Source of the DNA: Candidatus Hydrogenisulfobacillus filiaventi
GTDB lineage: Bacteria > Bacillota > Sulfobacillia > Sulfobacillales > R501
NCBI GenBank assembly: GCA_902809825.1
Contig: LR778114.1
Location: forward strand, 1,364,001 to 1,428,000
DNA: 64,000 nucleotides
Direction of reading: 5' to 3'
The notes below the pieces were generated by a model. The model had not been told where the DNA came from. It saw nothing but the letters and a program-made list of their open reading frames with translations, and ran no database searches. Below, one piece after another: positions 8,048-39,183 of this stretch. How positions within the stretch are numbered: the first letter of the stretch is position 1; each line of letters starts with the position of its first letter. A program made the translations under genes and the position numbers.

Positions 8048-9931
8048 TCAGGGCAGCAGCCCGCGCCGGTCGCCCAGCCGGCGCGTGATCCGGCGCTGGT
8101 CCATCATTTCCAGCAGCGGCACCGCCCAACGCCGGTTCACCCCCAGCACCTCGCGCAGTTCGGAGGTGGTGAGCTCCCCCCGGGCCGCCAGCGCCGCCCG
8201 CACCTGCTCCACCGCACCGGTAAAGGCGGCCGCCCCCACATAGTATCCCGGCTCCAGGCGGACCAGCGCGCCGCTCTCCGTCAGGCGGTCGGCCAGGTCA
8301 TGACCGGTCTCGGCCGGGATGCCCAGCCGCTCCAGCAGGGGGTCCAGGGGTTCGGGCTTCAGGCCCCAGGCCTCGACCGCCTCCGTTAAGGCCTGGCGCC
8401 ACCGGACCGCCTCCCCCTCCCAACGCACCCCGAACCCGGCCGTCCGCACCCACTCCCGTTCCGTCTCCACCCCCGGCAGCAGGCCCAGGGCCCAGGCGAA
8501 GACCCCCACCTCCCAGCCGGGGGCGACCGCCCGCGCCAGCGCTTCGCGGGGCATCCCCGGCCGCAGCGGATGGGCCTCCTGGTAGGCGCGGAGGGTCTCC
8601 TCCACCTCACGGCCCCAGGCAGCCAGCCGGGCATCCGTCCACCACCAGCGACCGCCGGGGTCGTGGAGCACGCCAGCCTCCGCCTCCAGCCGGGCTGCCA
8701 CCTCGGGCGCCGGCAGCCCGGCCTGCGCGGCCAGACCCTCAAGGTCCAGAGGACGGCTGGCCCCCGCTACCGCCTCCACCGCCAGGGCCGCATCCCGCCC
8801 GCCGGCGGCCGCCAGGCGCTCCAGCCGCTCCCGGAGACCGGACTCCTTGCGGCGGTGATGCACCCCCGTCTCCAGGATCACCCCACCCCCGATGGTGACC
8901 ACCGGGCTATAGGAGCGGATCAGAAAGCGGTCCCCGCGCAAGGCCGCCACCGCCCGGTCCAGCACCAGCTCCGCGAACGCGGTATCCCCCGGCGGCAGGG
9001 GACCGGGCTCATACAGATGGACGCGAGCCACCGCCTCCGCAGTGCCGGTATGGAAATGCACCCGGGTCTGGTGCCGGAGGGCTTCCGCCCGGGGTAGCAG
9101 GTGCAGCTGCACCACCAGCCGGGTTTCGGCAGCCGGAATCCCGTCCGTGCCCAGCACCATGCCCCGGCTGACTTGCTCCCGCTCCACGCCGGTCAGGTTG
9201 GCCGCCACCCGCTGGCCGGCCTCGGCCACCGGCACCGGCCGGTTGTGGACCTCCAGACCCCGGATGCGGGCCGGGATCCCGCCCGGGCTCAGGGTCACCG
9301 CCTGGCCCACCCGCAGGGTGCCGCTGACCAGGGTCCCGGTGACGACCGTCCCGAACCCCCGCACCGTGAAGACGCGGTCCACGGGCAGACGGGGATGCCC
9401 GCCTTGCGGGCGGGGCGGCACCTCAGCCGCCAGCCGGTCCAGCGCTTCCCGCAGTGCCGGCAGGCCGCGGCCGGACAGGGAATCGACGGCCAGCAGCGGG
9501 GCCCCCTCGAGAAAGCTGCCCGCCAGCTCCTCCCGCACGGTCTCCTCCACCATGGCCAGCCAGTCGGCATCCACCAGGTCCGCCTTGCTGAGCACCACCA
9601 CCCCCCGCCGGACGCCCAGCAGCTGCAGGATATCGAGGTGCTCGCGCGTCTGCGGCATGACCCCCTCGTCGGCCGCCACCACCAGGATGACGGCGTCCAT
9701 GCCGTGCACCCCCGCCACCATGTTGCGCACAAAGCGCTCATGACCGGGGACATCGATGAGGGCGGCCCGGCGCCCGGAGGGCAGAATAAAGTGGGCAAAG
9801 CCGAGGTCGATGGTGATACCCCGGCTTTGCTCCTCCGGCAGGCGGTCGGTATTGATCCCGGTCAAGGCCCGGGCCAGTTCCGTCTTGCCGTGGTCGATAT
9901 GGCCTGCGGTTCCGAAGATGACCGGCCTCAT
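8048..9931 (-). CDS. selB: Selenocysteine-specific elongation factor SelB
   Basis: Delivers selenocysteinyl-tRNA to UGA codons marked by a SECIS element. It has 627 residues. The GTPase domain shows G1 [11 protein letters not shown] (7-17), DVPGHE (G3) and SKAD (G4). EF-Tu-like beta barrels follow, then a C-terminal set of winged-helix domains that bind SECIS RNA, ending [18 protein letters not shown]. The length and GTP-binding domain separate it from EF-Tu. Its ATG overlaps the trxB stop (ATGA), so it is coupled to trxB. No selA, selD or tRNA-Sec gene is visible nearby, so the selenoprotein machinery must be elsewhere. Confidence 0.93.
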
Positions 9932-27348: not shown

Positions 27349-28677
27349 TTAGCCGGCGGATTCCGACACCTCGGCCGCCAGGCCGGGCGCGGCCAGGACG
27401 CCCTGCGGCTGGCGACCCAGCCACGGCACCAGCGCCAGGTCCAGGGCCACCAGCGCCAGCAGCACCCCGAAACTGGCCGCATAAGGATGCGGACCACCCA
27501 CCAGCTGCACGGCCAGCCCTTGGAGCGGCGGGATCACGAATCCGCCCAACGCCCCCAGGCCGCCTACCCATCCGGCCGCGCCTCCCATGGCATCGGGCAC
27601 ATAGCGGGGGAGCAGCTTGAAGACCACCGCATTCTGCAGCCCCATCCCCAGGGCGATCACCAGGGTACCCGCCAGGGCGGCGCCCGGGCTGCCCGCTCCC
27701 ATCACCAGCAGGGCACCGGTCCCCATAACCAGGAGATTGACCGCCAGGGCATAACGGATGGAGAGACGGTCAGCCAGGATGCCGCCCGGCACCCGCACCA
27801 GGGAGCTCAGCAGGGAGAAACTGAGGGTGAGCAGCCCGGCAGCCTGCAGGCGTTCATGATAAGCAGTGTGCCAGAAGGAGGGCAGCCAGGCGGTCAGGGC
27901 CAGGAAGCCGCCGAAGGAGGTAAAGTAGAAGGCCACCAGCAGCCAGGTCGCCGGCCGCCGCGCCGCGCGCGCCAGGCCGGCGCGAGCGCTGCCGGCCGGC
28001 AGCAGTTCCTGCCCGTAGGCCGCCACCGCCGCCGCGTCCGCCGGCAGGCCCTGGCGGCGGAGCTGGAAGGAGGGTGCGTCGTGCATCAGCAGCGCATAGA
28101 GCAGGATGATGAGACCCAGGAACACCGCCCAGCCCGCATAGGCGGACACCATGCCCCACGCCAGCACCAGAGCCGGCAGCAGGCCCGCGAAAATCCCGGG
28201 GGCGGTATTGCCCAGGCCGGCGTACGTCCCCAACGCCCCACCCTGGCGGGAGCGCGGGAACCAATAGGAGACCTGGGCGATCCCCACGGAGAAGGTTCCG
28301 ATCCCAGCCCCGGACAGGAGCCCGAGCAGCAGCAGGACCGGATACATCCCCTGCAGATGCGCGGGGTAAGCAGCATGCACCAGCCAGGCCGTGCCGGCAA
28401 CCCCGAGCCAGGAGGCCAGCAGCAGGATCAGAAACGGACGTTTGCCGCCAGCGGAATCCACCCAGGCCCCGAAGGGGATCCGGAGCAGGGATCCGGAAAG
28501 ATTGGCAATGGCCGCCAGCAGTCCGGCCTCCACCGGGGAGAGGGCCATGGCATGGCTGAATTTAGGCACCAGCGGCCCGAAGATGGACACCCCGGCGAAC
28601 CCGCCGAAGAAACCCAGCGTAGCCATGGCCAGCGCGCCCGCCGGCCGGCCCCGCACGCGTACGGTGTTGGTGTTCAC
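27349..28677 (-). CDS. narK: Nitrate/nitrite transporter, NarK-type MFS permease
   Basis: Moves nitrate and/or nitrite across the membrane. It has 442 residues and 12 helices. Both NarK signature glycine-rich segments are visible: GLLSGAGIGTFSVGIAQVSY in helix 5 and GAAGWVGGLGALGGFVIPP in helix 11. A conserved Arg in LLRIPFGAWVD fits the substrate-binding position. The start is GTG (28677) preceded by GGGAGG. It is close in sequence to the second narK at 30048-31445, so the pair arose by duplication. Lies downstream of a Crp/Fnr-type site at 28800-28815 and has its own terminator, so it is a separate unit. Confidence 0.9.
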   Translation of the reverse strand: MNTNTVRVRGRPAGALAMATLGFFGGFAGVSIFGPLVPKFSHAMALSPVEAGLLAAIANLSGSLLRIPFGAWVDSAGGKRPFLILLLASWLGVAGTAWLVHAAYPAHLQGMYPVLLLLGLLSGAGIGTFSVGIAQVSYWFPRSRQGGALGTYAGLGNTAPGIFAGLLPALVLAWGMVSAYAGWAVFLGLIILLYALLMHDAPSFQLRRQGLPADAAAVAAYGQELLPAGSARAGLARAARRPATWLLVAFYFTSFGGFLALTAWLPSFWHTAYHERLQAAGLLTLSFSLLSSLVRVPGGILADRLSIRYALAVNLLVMGTGALLVMGAGSPGAALAGTLVIALGMGLQNAVVFKLLPRYVPDAMGGAAGWVGGLGALGGFVIPPLQGLAVQLVGGPHPYAASFGVLLALVALDLALVPWLGRQPQGVLAAPGLAAEVSESAG

Positions 28678-28799: not shown

Positions 28800-28815
28800 T
28801 GTGACCGTGATCACC
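28800..28815. promoter_or_regulatory. Crp/Fnr-family operator upstream of narK
   Basis: TGTGA-CCGTGA-TCACC, one mismatch from the Bacillus Fnr consensus TGTGA-N6-TCACA. Its centre is 130 bases upstream of the narK GTG. A weak -10 (GATAGA, minus strand, 28775-28770) would put the centre near -44. It is nearly identical to the site before the hemerythrin-nar operon. The rest of 28678-28929 holds no gene. Confidence 0.6.
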
Positions 28816-29821: not shown

Positions 29822-30061
29822 CTACCCGAGGCCGGGCAGGCGGAAGGTCTGCGGCCCGGCCTCCAGTTCACGCCGGAAGCGGTCCAGCGACGGCGCATTG
29901 GCGGCCACCAGAATCAGGCGGTCGATGACATCGGGTTCCGCCAGGCCTAGCACTTGGCGTACCAGGTCCTCGGGGATCCGGCCGAACCGCCGCTGCAGCA
30001 CTTCCAGCAAATCCCGGACTGCCTCCCCGGCCGCGGCCGGGGAACCTTCAGTACCGCCCAT
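29822..30061 (-). CDS. Small hypothetical protein, DUF4351-like
   Basis: 79 residues, mostly helical. The sequence LLEVLQRRFGRIPEDLVRQV followed by a short helix with LILVAANAPSLDRF resembles the small domain DUF4351 seen at the C-terminus of some Rpn-type nucleases and alone. The ATG overlaps the 3' end of the preceding narK by 14 bases and has AAAGGGG upstream. No function known. Confidence 0.7.
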   Translation of the reverse strand: MGGTEGSPAAAGEAVRDLLEVLQRRFGRIPEDLVRQVLGLAEPDVIDRLILVAANAPSLDRFRRELEAGPQTFRLPGLG

Positions 30062-31445
30062 AATCCGTCCCCTTTCCCGCCGGCGCAGGGCCACCGGACC
30101 CGCCTGGCGCCCACTCCCCCCCGGCTGCCCGCCGTCCGGTCCCGGCCTCCTCCCCCGGCGCCGGGGGAGCCAGGCGGCCCAGCCACACCACCACGCCCAA
30201 ATTGAGGAGCACCAGCACCAGGAAGACCGCAAAGCTCATCTGATAGGGGTGCCCTCCTCCCCGGCTGCCGGCCAGGTACCCCATCAGCGGCGGAATGAGG
30301 AACCCGCCCAACGCCCCCAGGCCGCCCACCCATCCGGCGGCTCCGCCCATGGCGTCGGGGACATAGCGGGGGGCCAGTTTAAACACGATCGCATTCTGCA
30401 GCCCCATGCCTACCGCCAGCACCACCGTCCCCCCTAAAGCAATCCCAGCGGAGCCGGCCAGCATCACCACCGTTGCCCCGACCCCGATCACCAGTAGGTT
30501 GACGGTCAGGGCATAACGGATGGACAGGCGGTCGGCGAGGACCCCGCCCGGCACCCGCACCAGCGAGGTCAGGACCGAATACACTAGGGTGTACAAGCCG
30601 GCGGTTTCCAGGGGCAGGTGGTAAGCGGCATGCCAAAAGGAGGGCAACCAGGCGGTCAGGGCCAGGAATCCGCCGAAGGAGGTGAAATAGAGGGTCACCA
30701 GGGCCCAGGTGGCCGGCCGTCGGGCGGCCCGCTCCAGCCCTTCCCGGGCGCTACCGACCGGGAGGAGTTCCTGGCCGTACGCCGCCACCCGGGCGGCCGT
30801 CACCCGCTCGCCGCGGGCAGCGAGCTGAAACGAGGGGGCATCATGCTGCCAGAGGGCATAGATGAGGAGGATGATCGCCAAAAAACCGGCCCAGGCCAGG
30901 TAGGCCGGCACCATGCCCCAGCGGATGACCAGCACCGGCAGGATGCCGGCAAAGAGGCCCGGACCCAGGTTGCCGATCCCGGCGTAAATCCCTAGCGGGC
31001 CACCCTGCTGGGAGCGGGGGAACCAGTAAGAAACCTGCCCAATCCCGACGGAGAAAGTCGCGATACCGGCGCCCGACAGCAGCCCCAGGAGGAGCAGCAC
31101 CGGGTACAGACCTCCCAGGCGAGCCGGATACGCCACGTCCACCAGCGCCGCTGTGCCCAGGATCCCAGTCAGCGCCAGCGCCAGCAGGATCAGAAACGGC
31201 CGTTTGCCGCCGATGGCGTCCACCCAGGCGCCGAAGGGAATCCGCAACAAGGAACCGGTGAGGTTGGCGATGGCCGCCAGCAAGCCTCCCTCCAGCGGGC
31301 TCAAATGCATGGCCTGCACGAATTTGGGCACCAGGGGCCCGAAGACGGAAACCCCGGCAAACCCCCCGAAAAACCCCACCGTGGCCAGTACCAGGGCGGC
31401 CCGGGGACCGCCCCGGACCCCCCCTCCGCCTGACGGCTCCAACAT
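30048..31445 (-). CDS. narK: Nitrate/nitrite transporter, NarK-type MFS permease (second copy)
   Basis: 465 residues and 12 helices, with the same signatures as the other copy (GLLSGAGIATFSVGIGQVSY; GAAGWVGGLGALGGFLIPP). It has a longer Gly/Pro/Ala-rich tail of about 35 residues. ATG 31445 lies ten bases after AAGGAGGG. It is the seventh gene of the nar run, 13 bases after the carbonic anhydrase stop. The two copies may differ in direction or substrate (nitrate uptake against nitrite export), which the sequence alone cannot tell. Confidence 0.9.
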   Translation of the reverse strand: MLEPSGGGGVRGGPRAALVLATVGFFGGFAGVSVFGPLVPKFVQAMHLSPLEGGLLAAIANLTGSLLRIPFGAWVDAIGGKRPFLILLALALTGILGTAALVDVAYPARLGGLYPVLLLLGLLSGAGIATFSVGIGQVSYWFPRSQQGGPLGIYAGIGNLGPGLFAGILPVLVIRWGMVPAYLAWAGFLAIILLIYALWQHDAPSFQLAARGERVTAARVAAYGQELLPVGSAREGLERAARRPATWALVTLYFTSFGGFLALTAWLPSFWHAAYHLPLETAGLYTLVYSVLTSLVRVPGGVLADRLSIRYALTVNLLVIGVGATVVMLAGSAGIALGGTVVLAVGMGLQNAIVFKLAPRYVPDAMGGAAGWVGGLGALGGFLIPPLMGYLAGSRGGGHPYQMSFAVFLVLVLLNLGVVVWLGRLAPPAPGEEAGTGRRAAGGEWAPGGSGGPAPAGKGTDYGRY

Positions 31446-32101: not shown

Positions 32102-32797
32102 TCAAGCTCCCCGGCCCCGGTATTGGGTCCGAGAGCGGTACTGGATCGGCGCCCGGCGCAGGTAGGCCAGGGGCAGGCTCCAGATGTGCACGAGGCGCGT
32201 GAAGGGCGAAATGGCGAAGAGGGTAAAGGCCGCCAGGATGTGAATCTTGATCAAGAGCGGGACCCCCGCCATCAGGGTCGGATCCGGATGCAGGACCAGG
32301 AGCCCCCGGATCCAAGGCCCAACGGTGCTGCGGTAACCGTAGGGTCCCACCATATTGTTGTAGAGGAGGGTGATGCTGAGCCCCAGGGAGATGACCACGA
32401 ACAGCAGCAGGATGGCCACCCAGTCCATCATAACCCGGGAATTGATGCGCACACGCGGGAAGCGCCAGCGGCGCAGGATCAGGATCCCGATCCCGGTCCA
32501 GGCCATGAGGCCGGTGATGCCCCCGGCGATGTCGGCGTTCTCATGATAGAACTCCCGCGACACCCCCAGAGCCGACCACACCGCCTTGGGCACCAGAATA
32601 CCGGCCACGTGCCCGAAAAACACCAGGATGATGCCCCAGTGGAACAGGAGGCTGCCCCATTTCAGCCAGCGCTTCTCCAGCACCTCGCTGGAGCGGGACC
32701 CCCAGCCCAACGGGTCGAGGTCGTACCGCCAGAGGCTCCCCCACACCATGAGGCTCAGGGTCAGGTAGGGATAGATCACCCACAAAAACTGCTGCAT
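32102..32797 (-). CDS. narI: Respiratory nitrate reductase gamma subunit NarI
   Basis: Membrane cytochrome b subunit that oxidises quinol and passes electrons to NarH. It has 231 residues and five helices. Histidines for two haems b are visible near the N-terminus (SLLFHWGIILVFFGHVAGI) and C-terminus (LLIKIHILAAFTLFAISPFTRLVHIW). ATG 32797 has AGGAGG upstream and opens with the first helix, MQQFLWVIYPYLTLSLMV. Confidence 0.95.
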   Translation of the reverse strand: MQQFLWVIYPYLTLSLMVWGSLWRYDLDPLGWGSRSSEVLEKRWLKWGSLLFHWGIILVFFGHVAGILVPKAVWSALGVSREFYHENADIAGGITGLMAWTGIGILILRRWRFPRVRINSRVMMDWVAILLLFVVISLGLSITLLYNNMVGPYGYRSTVGPWIRGLLVLHPDPTLMAGVPLLIKIHILAAFTLFAISPFTRLVHIWSLPLAYLRRAPIQYRSRTQYRGRGA

Positions 32798-32811: not shown

Positions 32812-33435
32812 TCAGACCGGGAACCCGGGCGCCGCCGGGCCCGGGGCGAGGGGATAGGGCAGGTCGAAAAGCTCCCGGGCGTCCTGCCGGGCCGGGCCGG
32901 CCGGGAGGGCATCCGTCCCCGCAGGCAGCAGGCTGCTGATGGCCTGCCACACAGCGGCATAGGGGCTGCCCCGGGCCTGCAGCCGCTCTGCCAGCCGGGC
33001 GGCTACCGGCGCCACCCGCCGCGCCACCGCCGCCCGTGCCGGGCTCTCCGGGGCCACGGCCAGGAATTCCAGCAGTAGGGGCAGGTGGTCGGGAAGCACC
33101 CCCGGTTGTGGCCGGAACCCCTCCTGCCGCAGCAGGTCCTGCAACGCCAGCAGCGCCTGTCCCCGGGCGCGGCTGTCACCGTGCTCGTGGAAGGTGAGGG
33201 CCAGCCCGGTGTCCTCGGCAAAGTCGAACACCTCCACGTAGTGGGCCTCCAGGTCAAGCGGGTCCCGGCCCTCCAGGGCCGCCACCGCCTCTGCCAGGCG
33301 GGGCCGCAGGGCCGGATCCACCTGCGCCAGCACTGCCGGCACCTGCCTCCAGACCCGCCAGAAGGCCCGGTCCGGATAGCCGGCCAGGAAAGCCGCCAGC
33401 TTTAACGCCATCCGTTCCCCGTCCGGGACGGTCAT
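32812..33435 (-). CDS. narJ: Nitrate reductase assembly chaperone NarJ
   Basis: Cytoplasmic chaperone that helps insert the molybdenum cofactor into NarG and is not part of the final enzyme. It has 207 residues, TorD/NarJ fold, with the family segment LEAHYVEVFDFAEDTGLALTFHEHGDSRARG in the middle. The ATG overlaps the narH stop (ATGA). Confidence 0.93.
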   Translation of the reverse strand: MTVPDGERMALKLAAFLAGYPDRAFWRVWRQVPAVLAQVDPALRPRLAEAVAALEGRDPLDLEAHYVEVFDFAEDTGLALTFHEHGDSRARGQALLALQDLLRQEGFRPQPGVLPDHLPLLLEFLAVAPESPARAAVARRVAPVAARLAERLQARGSPYAAVWQAISSLLPAGTDALPAGPARQDARELFDLPYPLAPGPAAPGFPV

Positions 33436-34934
33436 ACCCCGACCTCCTTCCCCGGCAGACGGAACTGCACAAACGGCACCCCTTCGGGCGGCGCGATCCC
33501 CTCCAGGCTGCAGGCCCCCTGCTCGTAGGCCAGGTCGGGATCCCCTTCCCGTGCCCCGGTGGGGATGACGAACCGTTCCTCGTACTTGGCCACACTCAGC
33601 AGGCGGGCCATCGCCTCCAGCTCCTCCCGGTTGGTGCCGGCCTCCTCCAGCAGGTCGGCCGGGGTCTCCAGCCCCTCCGCCCGCCGCCGCATGTGTACCC
33701 GCATGGCCACCAGCTTACGCAACACCCGCCGCACCACCTCCACCTCCCCCGCCGCCAACAGGTTGGCCAGGTACTGGAGGGGGATGCGCATGGCGTCCAC
33801 GGTGGGCATGAGAACATCCGGGTCGGCCCCGGCCTCCTCCGGCAAGTGCTGTAGGATGGGGCTCAAGGGCGGTACATACCAGATCATGGGCAGAGTGCGG
33901 TACTCCGGATGCAGGGGCAGGGCGATCCCCCACTCCACCGCCATCCGATAGACAGGCGAGCGGCGGGCCGCCTCCAGCCAGCTGTCATTGATGCCGGCGG
34001 CGCGCGCCTCCCGGACCACCTTAGGATCGGACGGGTCAAGGAAAAGGGCGCGCTGGGCCGCATAGAGGTCGCGGGGGTCCTCGGTCATGGCCACCGCCTT
34101 GACCCGGTCGGCGTCATAGAGGATAACGCCCAGGTAGCGGATGCGCCCGACACAGGTCTCCGAACAGACGGTCGGCAGCCCAGCCTCGATGCGCGGGTAG
34201 CAGAAGGTGCACTTCTCGGCCTTGTGGCTGTTCCAATTGAAGTACACCTTCTTGTAAGGGCAGGCGCTGACGCAGAAGCGCCACCCTCGGCAGGCCTCCT
34301 GGTCGACCAGGACGATGCCGTCCTCCTCCCGCTTGTACATCGCCCCCGAAGGGCAGGCCGCCACGCAGGCGGGATTGAGGCAATGGTTACAGATGCGGGG
34401 CAGATACATCATGAAGGTCTCTTCATAAGCCAGCCGCACCTGCTCCTGCAAGGCCTGCAGATTGGGGTCGCGCCCGGCCGCCGCCGGGCCCCCCGCAAGG
34501 TCGTCATCCCAGTTCGGCCCCCAGGTGGGGCGGTCCAGGGCCTCCCCCGTCAGCAGGGAGTGCGGCCGCGCCACCGGCTGGTGGCGGCGCTCCGGGCTAT
34601 CGATCAGGGTGGCATAGTCGTAGGTCCACGGTTCATAGTAGTCATCCACCGTGGGCAGATCGGGGTTGTAAAAGATCTGGGCCAGCCGGGTCAGGGCCCC
34701 GCCCGAGCGCAGCACCAGCCGCCCCTGGCGCAGGGTCCAGCCACCCCGCCAGTGGTCCTGGTCCTCCCATGCGCGGGGATAGCCCATGCCTGGGCGGGTC
34801 TCCACGTTGTTGAACCAGATGTACTCCGTCCCCGGCCGGTTCGTCCAGGTGTTCTTGCAGGTGACACTGCAGGTATGGCAGCCGATACACTTGTCGAGGT
34901 TCATCACCATCGCCACCTGGGCCTTAATCCGCAA
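33432..34934 (-). CDS. narH: Respiratory nitrate reductase beta subunit NarH
   Basis: Iron-sulfur subunit that carries electrons from NarI to NarG. It has 500 residues. Four cysteine clusters are visible: CIGCHTCSVTC at the N-terminus, CNHCLNPACVAAC, CRGWRFCVSAC (tryptophan in place of one cysteine, the [3Fe-4S] site) and CTFCYPRIEAGLPTVCSETC. The start is TTG at 34934, nine bases after GGGAG, overlapping the narG end by 11 bases. Confidence 0.96.
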   Translation of the reverse strand: MRIKAQVAMVMNLDKCIGCHTCSVTCKNTWTNRPGTEYIWFNNVETRPGMGYPRAWEDQDHWRGGWTLRQGRLVLRSGGALTRLAQIFYNPDLPTVDDYYEPWTYDYATLIDSPERRHQPVARPHSLLTGEALDRPTWGPNWDDDLAGGPAAAGRDPNLQALQEQVRLAYEETFMMYLPRICNHCLNPACVAACPSGAMYKREEDGIVLVDQEACRGWRFCVSACPYKKVYFNWNSHKAEKCTFCYPRIEAGLPTVCSETCVGRIRYLGVILYDADRVKAVAMTEDPRDLYAAQRALFLDPSDPKVVREARAAGINDSWLEAARRSPVYRMAVEWGIALPLHPEYRTLPMIWYVPPLSPILQHLPEEAGADPDVLMPTVDAMRIPLQYLANLLAAGEVEVVRRVLRKLVAMRVHMRRRAEGLETPADLLEEAGTNREELEAMARLLSVAKYEERFVIPTGAREGDPDLAYEQGACSLEGIAPPEGVPFVQFRLPGKEVGV

Positions 34935-37900
34935 GCCAGTTCACTCCCTTCCGGCCGCTACGCACTGCTTCCTCCACCGGTCGGATGAGCACCATGGTGT
35001 CGCGCTGGTGCCCGGTGGGCCCGTAGTAGTTAAAACCGTAGGACAGCTGCGCGTACCCGCCGATAAAGTGGGTGGGCTTGGGGATGACGCGGGTGACGCT
35101 GTTGTGGGTCCCGCCCCGGTCCCCGGTGATGAAGGAGGCCGGCACCCCCACCGTGCGGTCCTGGGCATGGTACATGAGCACCATCCCGGGAGGCAGCCGG
35201 TGGCTGACCACCGCCCGGGCGATGATGGCCCCGTTGCGGCTGTAGACCTCAATCCAGTCGTTGTCCGCAATCCCCAGGGCAGCTGCATCCCGGTCGCTCA
35301 CCCACACCGTCTGCCCGCCCCGGAACAGGCTCAACATGCGCGGATTGTCCGCGTAGGTGGAATGGATGCCCCACTTCTGGTGGGGGGTGATCCAGCGCAC
35401 CGCCAGCACCCGCTGGCCGTTGCCCGCCACCGCGGGGTCGGCAGGGGTAAAGGGCGGCAGGTCCAGCGGAGGCCGGTACAGCGGCAGGCCCTCCCCCAGG
35501 TCCGCCATCAGCTCGTGGTCGAGGAAGAAGTGCTGCCGGCCGGTCAGGGTGCGCCAGGGCACCCGGTAGTCCACGTTGACCGTAAAGGGCGAGTAGCGCC
35601 GGTTCTCGGCCTCGAGCCCGCTCCACACCGGCGAGGGGATAGCCTGCCGGGGCTGGGCGGTCAGCTCCTTGATGGAGAAAGCCTCCTCCTCATGGCCAGC
35701 GGCCACTTCCCGCAGCGCTGCTATCCCGGTGGTCTGGGCCAACGCTGTCCATTCCTCCACCGCCCGGTGCCCGTTGGTGGTGCCGGAGAGGATGAGGATG
35801 GCATCGGCTGCCCGCCGGTCCTCGACGATGCGTGGCCGGCCCGCGGCGGCCCCTTCCCTCACCACCCCTAACTTGCGGCGCAGCTCGGCGTAGGCCGCCC
35901 GTCCATCAATCCGCACCCCCTTGGTGGTCAGAGCTGTCTCCGCCGCCGGGCCCACGCTGGTCATCTGGGCCCACAGGTCCCGGTAGCGCCGGCGCACCAC
36001 CACCAACCGGGGCAATGTGCGCCCGGGCTCGGCCGGCACCTCCCTCCGGCGCCAGTCCCGGATACGGCCGCCCGGCTGGGCCAGCTCATCCGGGGTGTCA
36101 TGCTGCAGCGGCACCGCCACCAGGTCCTCCACCTCCTCCGGCAGGTGGTCGGCTGCCAGGCGCGAGAAGGTCCGGGCCAGAGCCTGAAAGGCCTGCCAGT
36201 CGCTCTTCACCTCCCAGGGGGGGCTGACCGCAGGGTTGAAGGGATGGACAAAGGGATGCATATCGGTGCTGGACAGGTCATGCTTCTCATACCAAGTGGC
36301 CGCCGGCAGCAGCACGTCGGAGTAAAGAGCGGTGGAGGTCATCCGGAAATCGGTGGTGACCAGCAAATCCAGCTTGCCTTCGGGGATCGTGTCCGCCAAG
36401 CGCACCCCGTCCGGCTGCCCTCCCCCCGGTTCCGCCAGCACATGCCCACTGGTGCCGAGCAGAAACCTGAGGAAGAACTCATGCCCCTTTCCGGACGCCC
36501 CCAGCAGATTGGAGCGCCAGACAAAGAGCACCCGCGGGAAGTTGCGAGGATCCTCGGGCTCCTCCACCGCAAACCGCAGCTGACCCGACTCCAGCCGGCG
36601 GGCGACGTAGGCCGCTATCGCCGCCTCATCCCGTGCCCCCTCCCGGCGCGCCTCCGCGACCAGATCGAGGGGGTTGCGGGTGAACTGGGGGTAGGATGGC
36701 AGCCAGCCCAGGCGCACCGCCAGGGCCTGCAGGTCCATCAGGTGCAGGCGGCCGGTGGGGCCAGCCCAGGGGGTGACCAGCGTCCCCGGGTCCAGGGTCT
36801 CGTACCGAAACTGCTCACTGGCGGTGTAGAAGAAGAGGGTGCCATTCTGCTGCCGGGCGGGAATCCCCCAATCGCGCGCCGCGGCCAGCGTCTGCCAGCC
36901 CTCCAAGGGCCGTACCTTCTCCTGCCCCACGTAATGCGCCCAACCGCCGCCGTTCACGCCCTGGCTGCCGGTCAGCAGCACCAGGTTCAACATGGCCCGG
37001 TAGGTGACATCGCTGTGATACCAGTGGTTGGTGCCCCCACCCATGGCGATCAGGGCCCGGCCCCGGGTGCGGGCGGCGGTGGCGGCAAACTCCCGCGCCA
37101 CCCGGATGACCTGGTCTTGCGGCACCCCGGTGATGGCCTCCTGCCAGGCGGGGGTGTAGGGGCGCGGGTCTTCATAACTGCGGGGGTAGTCCCCCGGCAG
37201 GCCACGGTCCACCCCTACGTGGGCCATCAGGAGGTCGAACACGGTGGTGACCCAGTGCTCGCTCCCGTCGCCGAACCGTAACCGGCGCACCGGCACCCCC
37301 CGCACCACCGCTTCGGCCCGCCCGTTGCCAAAGTAGGGGAACTGTACCAGAACCGTTTCGACACCAGCATCCAGGAAGCTCAGGCGAGGGACGATCGGGC
37401 TGCCGTCCTCCCGTTCCAGGTGCAGATTCCACCGCCCCGACCCGTCCCAGCGGAAGCCCAGGCTGCCGGGGGGCACCACCGGTTCCCCCGCCTGGTCATC
37501 CCAGAGGACCGTCTTCCAGGCCGCATGCTCCCCCGCCTCCAGGCCCAGGTCGGCGGCGGTGACGAAGCGCCCTGCCAGATTGGCCTCGCCCGGACCGGCC
37601 TCCAACGTGACCAGGAAGGGCAGGTCGGTGTACTGCTTGACATAGTCCTCAAAGTACGGGGTGGGGTGATCGCGGTAGAACTCGGTCAGGATGACATGGG
37701 TCATGGCCATGGCCAGGGCCCCGTCCGTGCCCGGCCGCGCTGGCAGCCACTCATCGGCGAACTTGGCCGCCTCCGCGTAGTCCGGGCTGACCTCCACCAC
37801 CTTGGTGCCGTTATAGCGCGCCTCCACCATGAAGTGCGCGTCCGGCGTACGGGTCATGGGCAGGTTGGTGCCCCAGATGATGAGGTAGCGGCTGTTGTAC

Positions 37901-38640
37901 CAATCAGCGCTTTCGGGCACATCCGTCTGCTCGCCCCACACCTGCGGGGACGCCGGGGGCAGGTCGGCATACCAATCGTAAAAACTCAGCATGGACCCGC
38001 CCAGCAGGGACAAAAAGCGGGACCCGGCTGCAAAACTGACCATGGACATGGCGGGGATGGGGCTGAAGCCGGCGATGCGGTCGGGCCCATAGGCCCGGAT
38101 GGTGTCGACCAGGGCCGCGGCCACCAGTTCCGCCGCCTCATCCCAGGAAACCCTTACAAAACCGCCCTTGCCGCGGGCCTGCTGCCAGGCCGCCACTTGC
38201 AGCCGATCCTGACGCAGGGTCTCCCAGGCCCGCACCGGGTCGCCAGTGCGGCTGCGGGCCGCCTGCCAGGCCCGCCAGAGGGCGCTCCGCACATAAGGGT
38301 ACTTGACCCGCATGGGGCTGTACAGGTACCAGGAAAAGCTGGCCCCTCGGGGGCAGCCGCGGGGTTCATATTCGGGCATGTCGGGTCCGATGGAGGGATA
38401 GTCCGTGGCCTGGGTTTCCCAGGTCACGATCCCGTCCTTCACGTGGACTTTCCAGCTGCACGAGCCGGTACAATTGACGCCATGCGTGGAACGGACCACC
38501 TTATCATGTTGCCAGCGAGCACGGTAGAGGTCCTCCCACTGCCGATCACGGGGATTCTCCTCCGTCCAGCCCTGATTGATGCGCCGGCCGCGCCGCAGGT
38601 ACGCCAGCGAGCGGAACAGCGGGGAACGTTTGCGAGCCAC
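34924..38640 (-). CDS. narG: Respiratory nitrate reductase alpha subunit NarG
   Basis: Catalytic molybdo-bis-MGD subunit reducing nitrate to nitrite. It has 1238 residues. The N-terminal FS0 cluster ligands are His53, Cys57, Cys61 and Cys96 (THGVNCTGSCSW and YEPRGCPRG), the NarG-type set. The Asp expected to bind molybdenum lies in NLPMTRTPDAHFMVEARYN. There is no Tat signal with RRxFLK, so the active site is most likely cytoplasmic, unlike archaeal or haloarchaeal forms. GTG 38640 comes seven bases after AAGGAGG; no better start exists. Second gene of the hemerythrin-nar operon. Confidence 0.96.
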   Translation of the reverse strand: MARKRSPLFRSLAYLRRGRRINQGWTEENPRDRQWEDLYRARWQHDKVVRSTHGVNCTGSCSWKVHVKDGIVTWETQATDYPSIGPDMPEYEPRGCPRGASFSWYLYSPMRVKYPYVRSALWRAWQAARSRTGDPVRAWETLRQDRLQVAAWQQARGKGGFVRVSWDEAAELVAAALVDTIRAYGPDRIAGFSPIPAMSMVSFAAGSRFLSLLGGSMLSFYDWYADLPPASPQVWGEQTDVPESADWYNSRYLIIWGTNLPMTRTPDAHFMVEARYNGTKVVEVSPDYAEAAKFADEWLPARPGTDGALAMAMTHVILTEFYRDHPTPYFEDYVKQYTDLPFLVTLEAGPGEANLAGRFVTAADLGLEAGEHAAWKTVLWDDQAGEPVVPPGSLGFRWDGSGRWNLHLEREDGSPIVPRLSFLDAGVETVLVQFPYFGNGRAEAVVRGVPVRRLRFGDGSEHWVTTVFDLLMAHVGVDRGLPGDYPRSYEDPRPYTPAWQEAITGVPQDQVIRVAREFAATAARTRGRALIAMGGGTNHWYHSDVTYRAMLNLVLLTGSQGVNGGGWAHYVGQEKVRPLEGWQTLAAARDWGIPARQQNGTLFFYTASEQFRYETLDPGTLVTPWAGPTGRLHLMDLQALAVRLGWLPSYPQFTRNPLDLVAEARREGARDEAAIAAYVARRLESGQLRFAVEEPEDPRNFPRVLFVWRSNLLGASGKGHEFFLRFLLGTSGHVLAEPGGGQPDGVRLADTIPEGKLDLLVTTDFRMTSTALYSDVLLPAATWYEKHDLSSTDMHPFVHPFNPAVSPPWEVKSDWQAFQALARTFSRLAADHLPEEVEDLVAVPLQHDTPDELAQPGGRIRDWRRREVPAEPGRTLPRLVVVRRRYRDLWAQMTSVGPAAETALTTKGVRIDGRAAYAELRRKLGVVREGAAAGRPRIVEDRRAADAILILSGTTNGHRAVEEWTALAQTTGIAALREVAAGHEEEAFSIKELTAQPRQAIPSPVWSGLEAENRRYSPFTVNVDYRVPWRTLTGRQHFFLDHELMADLGEGLPLYRPPLDLPPFTPADPAVAGNGQRVLAVRWITPHQKWGIHSTYADNPRMLSLFRGGQTVWVSDRDAAALGIADNDWIEVYSRNGAIIARAVVSHRLPPGMVLMYHAQDRTVGVPASFITGDRGGTHNSVTRVIPKPTHFIGGYAQLSYGFNYYGPTGHQRDTMVLIRPVEEAVRSGRKGVNWLAD

Positions 38641-38653
38641 CGGAGTGCCTCCT

Positions 38654-39103
38654 TCAGGAATGTGCACGGACAGGCCGGACCGGCACCGCTGCGGCGGGAG
38701 AAGCCAGCAAGGACTCCTCCCGACGGGCATGTCGACGCAAGAGATCGAGAGCCGGCTCTAGCACCGCCGCCACCGCGTCCGGTCCCTTCTCTTCCAGTGC
38801 CGCACGAGCGGCGGCCACCGCCCTGGTTAGTGCGGCATGCTCGGCTGCCAGCTGGTCTAACAGCCCGCGCACCTGCGGTCGGGCTTGACGGAGCCAGGGA
38901 TACAGGTCGTCCTCTTCCGCGGTAAGATGGGCCAACACCCGTTGGTTCCAGGTCTCCACCAGGGCCGCCGCTACCCGGGCCGCGGCAGGGTCTTGCCGGC
39001 GGTTGAATGCGGCCAACCAGGCCAGCCCCTGGGCCACCTCGGTCTCCTGTGCCTCATGCACCGCCTGATGTGCCGCCGCCTGCCAAAGGGAAGGCCCGCT
39101 CAT
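38654..39103 (-). CDS. Hemerythrin-like HHE domain protein heading the nar operon
   Basis: 149 residues forming a four-helix HHE domain. Candidate metal ligands lie in HQAVHEAQ, in the AHLTAEEDDLYPWL motif, in AEHAALTRAV and in HARREESLL. Such proteins bind a di-iron centre and sense or bind O2 or NO, or repair nitrosative damage (YtfE/ScdA-like). It ends 13 bases before the narG start, so it is the first gene of the nar transcript. AGGAGGAG precedes ATG 39103. An NO- or oxygen-related role in nitrate respiration is inferred from context. Confidence 0.82.
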   Translation of the reverse strand: MSGPSLWQAAAHQAVHEAQETEVAQGLAWLAAFNRRQDPAAARVAAALVETWNQRVLAHLTAEEDDLYPWLRQARPQVRGLLDQLAAEHAALTRAVAAARAALEEKGPDAVAAVLEPALDLLRRHARREESLLASPAAAVPVRPVRAHS

Positions 39104-39140
39104 ACTCCCGTCTCCTCCTGGCCGTGTGCCTTACGGCCCC

Positions 39141-39183
39141 AGCATACGGTTGGCGCCCGAACCTGTCTGTGACTGCGATCACC
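39141..39183 (-). promoter_or_regulatory. Fnr-type activated promoter of the hemerythrin-narGHJI operon
   Basis: A site TGTGA-CTGCGA-TCACC at 39168-39183 and a -10 box TATGCT on the minus strand (39146-39141). Counting from the -10, transcription should start near 39134, which places the centre of the site at -41.5, the textbook position for class II Crp/Fnr activation. No -35 is needed or seen. The ATG is about 30 bases further. The remaining part, 39184-39353, holds no gene. Confidence 0.65.

Follow-up and report, generated by a model that had tools for sequence, protein, structure and literature searches.

A conserved Crp/Fnr-type palindrome at predicted class II spacing upstream of the hemerythrin-narGHJI operon of "Candidatus Hydrogenisulfobacillus filiaventi"

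Introduction

In Bacillus, Fnr carries a C-terminal Fe-S cluster and targets narGHJI and narK. The Dnr/Nnr-type regulators of denitrifiers respond to nitric oxide (NO), have no N-terminal cysteine cluster, are encoded near NnrS-type genes and control nar, nir and nor, with Dnr sites reading TTGAT-N4-GTCAA. Table 1 of PMC8151001 gives the FNR consensus, taken from Reents 2006, as TGTGANNNNNNTCACA. E. coli FNR reads TTGAT-N4-ATCAA, and at its class II promoters the site is centered at -41.5 (PMC4886647). For "Candidatus Hydrogenisulfobacillus filiaventi" R50, narGHIJK, nirK and norB have been reported to be present, together with an absence of denitrification in culture and of anaerobic growth on nitrate in the laboratory (PMC10080006).

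Here, we analyzed a 64,000-nucleotide stretch (the window) of the 2,570,337-base single-contig genome of this organism, which holds a nar operon preceded by a palindrome. The locus resembles the Bacillus Fnr regulon in its site, which is of the TGTGANNNNNNTCACA type, in its predicted nar and narK-type targets and in the Gram-positive-type lineage of the host, but its operon is headed by a hemerythrin gene and the two foremost candidate regulators, P0004 and P0005, are without cysteine. With the class II promoters of E. coli FNR it shares the -41.5 center, whereas its half-sites are TGTGA/TCACA. Like the Dnr/Nnr-type systems, it points to a cysteine-cluster-free regulator encoded near NnrS-type genes, but the site differs from that of Dnr. 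The regulatory principle is already known; what is new is its assignment to this order, along with a candidate regulator. A literature search for Crp/Fnr regulation of a hemerythrin-narG operon returned no match. For the denitrification genes of thermoacidophilic Sulfobacillus-related bacteria, the analysis names a candidate regulator and outlines a regulon that can be tested.

A palindrome at class II distance from a predicted nar promoter

All genes of the nar locus lie on the minus strand. The operon is headed by the gene for a hemerythrin-domain protein of 149 residues (38654..39103; PF01814, E 2.8e-13), and narG (34924..38640, start inferred; TIGR01580 above cut-off) begins about 13 nt after its stop. 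Next come narH (33432..34934), narJ (32812..33435) and narI (32102..32797, start approximate), which were named from their translations and the published gene list (PMC10080006), followed by the genes for narK-type transporter 1 (30048..31445) and narK-type transporter 2 (narK2, 27349..28677), matching TIGR00886 with E values of 3.8e-47 and 1.1e-45, respectively, both below the model's cut-off. A small protein starting with RRFGRIPEDLVRQVLGLAEPDVIDRLILVAANAPS, encoded at 29822-30232 on the minus strand, resembles the approximately 102-residue protein that intervenes between hemerythrin and narG in relatives.

Upstream of the hemerythrin gene, re-reading of the window placed TGTGACTGCGATCACC at 39168-39183; in the direction of the operon (minus strand), it reads GGTGATCGCAGTCACA. 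Window shuffles and order-wide conservation mark it as a predicted Crp/Fnr-type operator. The -10-like hexamer TATGCT (39141..39146, minus strand), supported by the spacing statistics described below, lies 21 nt after the operator, and arithmetic from this hexamer puts the predicted transcription start at 39134 on the same strand, so that the operator center, 39175.5, falls at -41.5. The positions of site and hexamer in the initial annotation, and the center relative to the predicted start, were correct. The hemerythrin ATG (39103) follows 31 nt past the predicted start and 37 nt past TATGCT, with a GGAGG-like box before it.

Class II promoters are characterized by a two-fold site about -41.5 from the start and by a dispensable consensus -35. 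The first feature is present relative to the predicted start, and the second agrees with the scores of the -35 place, which matched TTGACA at only 1-4 of six positions in 16 promoters. The window itself scored highest: CAGACA (39164..39169, minus strand) has four of six matches, against one to three in the other promoters, and a 17-nt spacer, overlaps the operator and is not conserved in relatives. A promoter scan of this region found no full sigma-70 promoter, and an Rfam search of the promoter gave no match. The -35 had initially been called missing, which fits the lack of a conserved -35 and of a full sigma-70 promoter but, given the four matches in the window, is slightly too strong.

The window contains two copies of TGTGA-N6-TCACC, compared with 0.06 expected from shuffles. 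The second is an exact copy at 28800..28815 (minus strand) upstream of narK2, a predicted second operator; the hexamer 21 nt after it is weak (TTGGAT), leaving this site without a good -10.

Conservation of the site and of its spacing

We compared narG loci from the same order, taking as the operon head the region that precedes hemerythrin or, where narK or a different gene leads the operon, that gene. Of the 18 order genomes that have narG with sufficient flanking sequence, 15 (G000, G002, G003, G013, G015, G019, G020, G028, G030-G035 and G037) carry at the nar operon head a site that departs from TGTGA-N6-TCACA by no more than one mismatch. The choice of head was somewhat free in this count, as G015, G028 and G033 entered it only once the search reached back to where a longer operon begins. 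The nar-head site was doubtful in G041 and was not found in G016 and G039; G021 and G023, whose loci are cut by contig ends, were left out of the 18. The resulting consensus is NGTGAY-N3-GATCACA. Read in the direction of the operon, all 16 nar sites have GTGAY on the left and RTCAC on the right, with G at position 10 in 14 and A at position 11 in 15 of them, and the window and narK2 sites match this consensus when the other strand is read. Across 42 genomes of the order, the exact motif occurred 79 times, against six matches for a reversed control.

The pattern corresponds to the Bacillus-type TGTGA-N6-TCACA, from which the window site departs by one mismatch at the last base and several relatives not at all. 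It does not correspond to the E. coli-type TTGAT-N4-ATCAA, the half-sites being GTGAY and RTCAC. The term Fnr-type, applied to the site initially, is apt in that TGTGA-N6-TCACA has the half-site of Bacillus Fnr, which is also that of Crp, but not in the sense of the TTGAT of E. coli.

The distance to the -10 recurred as well. In a set of 16 promoters (13 nar promoters and three others of this genome), hexamers with A2 and T6 peaked at 21 nt after the site, where they occurred in ten promoters, compared with no more than four at each of the other offsets between 0 and 59. When a near copy was removed, 7 of 12 nar promoters had such a hexamer at 21 nt, a value that none of 5000 shuffles reached at any offset; when later operon heads were used, the count at 21 nt was 8/16. 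A second set of 28 exact sites, obtained by pattern search in the 42 genomes with genes ignored, peaked at 21 nt again, with seven TANNNT hexamers versus three or fewer elsewhere. An offset of 21 nt equals a center at -41.5. The class II geometry proposed in the initial annotation was thereby borne out by the spacing in two separate site sets, and no -35 is conserved. Taken together, these data make it very probable that the palindrome is a true operator of the Crp/Fnr family and has class II spacing. In four promoters (L013, L017, L019 and L021), there is a TATATT-like hexamer some 40 nt beyond the site, corresponding to -60.5, and a second start of this type is therefore possible in some relatives.

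Candidate activators and their probable signal

Searching the whole genome with PF00027 returned three Crp/Fnr proteins, none of them encoded in the window, in agreement with the earlier expectation of a regulator located elsewhere. P0004, at 645 kb of the genome, and its paralogue P0005, at 746 kb, contain zero cysteines and share the recognition helix RRETVSR. Both belong to an order-wide clade (27 rows, support 98/98), many members of which likewise have no cysteine; the cysteine cluster of an Fe-S Fnr is thus absent from P0004, P0005 and many of their relatives, the proteins that track the site. The close structure matches of P0004 did not include DNR.

Gene neighborhoods link this clade to the site. 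P0004 adjoins a DUF2249 gene, with the site GGTGATCGGGATCACG between the crp gene and DUF2249; further genes adjoining P0004 look NnrS-like by eye only and are without a Pfam or NCBIfam match. The region upstream of P0004 in this genome holds no site within two mismatches. In five relatives (L051, L053, L057, L060 and L061), TGTGAY..RTCAC, followed after 21 nt by TAAACT/TAGACT/TAAGGT/TAGGAT/GAAAAT, precedes the stretch that holds crp: the site is in the promoter of a small conserved gene, and crp lies downstream of that gene and of genes that appear NnrS-like by eye. In genome G019, a distance of 7 kb separates crp from nar, and five sites lie between and around them within 11 kb.

We consider it probable that a Crp/Fnr homodimer activates hemerythrin-narGHJI in the class II manner. 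Such a homodimer would bind the palindrome centered at -41.5, abutting RNA polymerase, and at this position would make up for the poor -35 of the promoter. From site, spacing and conservation we infer both that the palindrome is bound and that the outcome is activation and not repression. The activator would most likely be P0004 or its paralogue P0005, from the cysteine-free order-wide clade, and its signal would probably be NO or another N-oxide or redox cue and not O2 sensed via a [4Fe-4S] cluster. The family is cysteine-free and, in relatives, its site-bearing operon sits beside NnrS-like and DUF2249 genes, which favors an NO- or N-oxide-type signal over an Fe-S O2 sensor; NO itself is suggested by the gene neighbors. 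If the activator indeed needs NO or an N-oxide rather than low O2, this could help to explain the silent denitrification trait. More tentatively, and with slightly less than even confidence, we suggest that, across the order, genes for nitrate respiration and for NO handling may have the cysteine-free P0004/P0005 subfamily as their principal activator, with this subfamily probably sensing NO without an Fe-S cluster and controlling its own operon in relatives.

Alternative regulators

Looking through the genome for Crp/Fnr proteins that bear a cysteine cluster, as had been suggested initially, did yield one, P0003, which has C6, C10, C17 and C136, three of them near the N-terminus, and a Crp-type helix, SRERVSR. 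The activator could then be this Fnr-like protein, sensing O2 through an Fe-S center. P0003 could bind the operator too, since R-E-x-x-S-R is common to all three Crp/Fnr proteins. In addition, a one-mismatch site, TGTGGCAGTTGTCACA, lies between P0003 and a divergent anaerobic CO dehydrogenase gene (TIGR01702), and toward the latter gene it is followed at 21 nt by TAATCT. However, P0003 stands on a long branch outside the order-wide Crp clade, whereas the nar site is order-wide; its spacing, C-x3-C-x6-C, is unlike that of E. coli FNR; and its closest relative in one scan of the genome collection reached no more than 29% identity. We regard P0003 as an unlikely activator of the nar operon. The Fe-S-cluster oxygen sensing envisaged in the initial annotation did not gain support, the family that tracks the motif being cysteine-free and the sole cysteine-cluster regulator adjoining a CO dehydrogenase gene. 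The P0003 locus itself (L001/L075, genome 885-887 kb) possibly encodes an Fe-S regulator of the CooS-type CO dehydrogenase gene. Near this CO dehydrogenase/Crp locus, a narG fragment with 59% identity and one internal stop (L075, genome 883612-883830) is perhaps the remnant of a second nar operon.

Binding by the NADH-sensing repressor Rex is a highly improbable explanation of the site. Rex operators too contain TGTGA-N6-TCACA, the published site being TTGTGAAW4TTCACAA (PMC2883068), and one gene of this genome is of the Rex type (PF06971). Nonetheless, Rex is disfavored by the mismatch at positions 6 and 11, where its consensus A6/T11 occurs in 0/16 nar sites and all have Y6 and R11; furthermore, a repressor site would not require a fixed -41.5 spacing without a conserved -35. 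Control by a cAMP-Crp (catabolite) activator appears just as remote: although the motif matches the core of the E. coli Crp consensus, TGTGATCTAGATCACA, and the three Crp/Fnr proteins match Crp models weakly, none passes the Crp model cut-off, and by eye all three have YPAS in place of the arginine-serine pair with which Crp contacts cAMP. Moreover, the targets are respiratory N-oxide genes and the host is an autotroph. Finally, a functionless chance palindrome, which would suit the mere two copies in the window and the mostly intragenic position of exact copies elsewhere in this genome, is very unlikely, to the point of being hardly credible, because nar operon heads throughout the order keep the site and the 21-nt spacing recurs.

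Further sites in the genome

Further copies of the site had been proposed for a search, and they were found: GTGAY-N4-RTCAC occurs 18 times genome-wide, versus three times for the pattern read backwards. Several exact TGTGA-N6-TCAC copies were put down to chance; they fall within genes, for example purD, rpsL and a CorA-like gene. Boxes of other types were set aside as well. The only exact TTGAT-N4-RTCAA copy in the window, TTGATCCCGGTCAA (9852-9865), falls in the start of a selB-like gene (8048-9931) and is probably due to chance, with many one-mismatch copies of this pattern across the genome; the TTGAC-N4-GTCAA palindromes that we checked, at 841, 880 and 646 kb, are all in coding sequence.

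Among the other denitrification genes, norB has a two-mismatch site only, and the copper nitrite reductase-like gene has a one-mismatch site, TGTGACCTGGCACACA, in its upstream region. In the stretch at 1226-1234 kb of the genome (L114), this gene comes after cydAB-like genes and before nosL and nosD; nosZ was not seen there.
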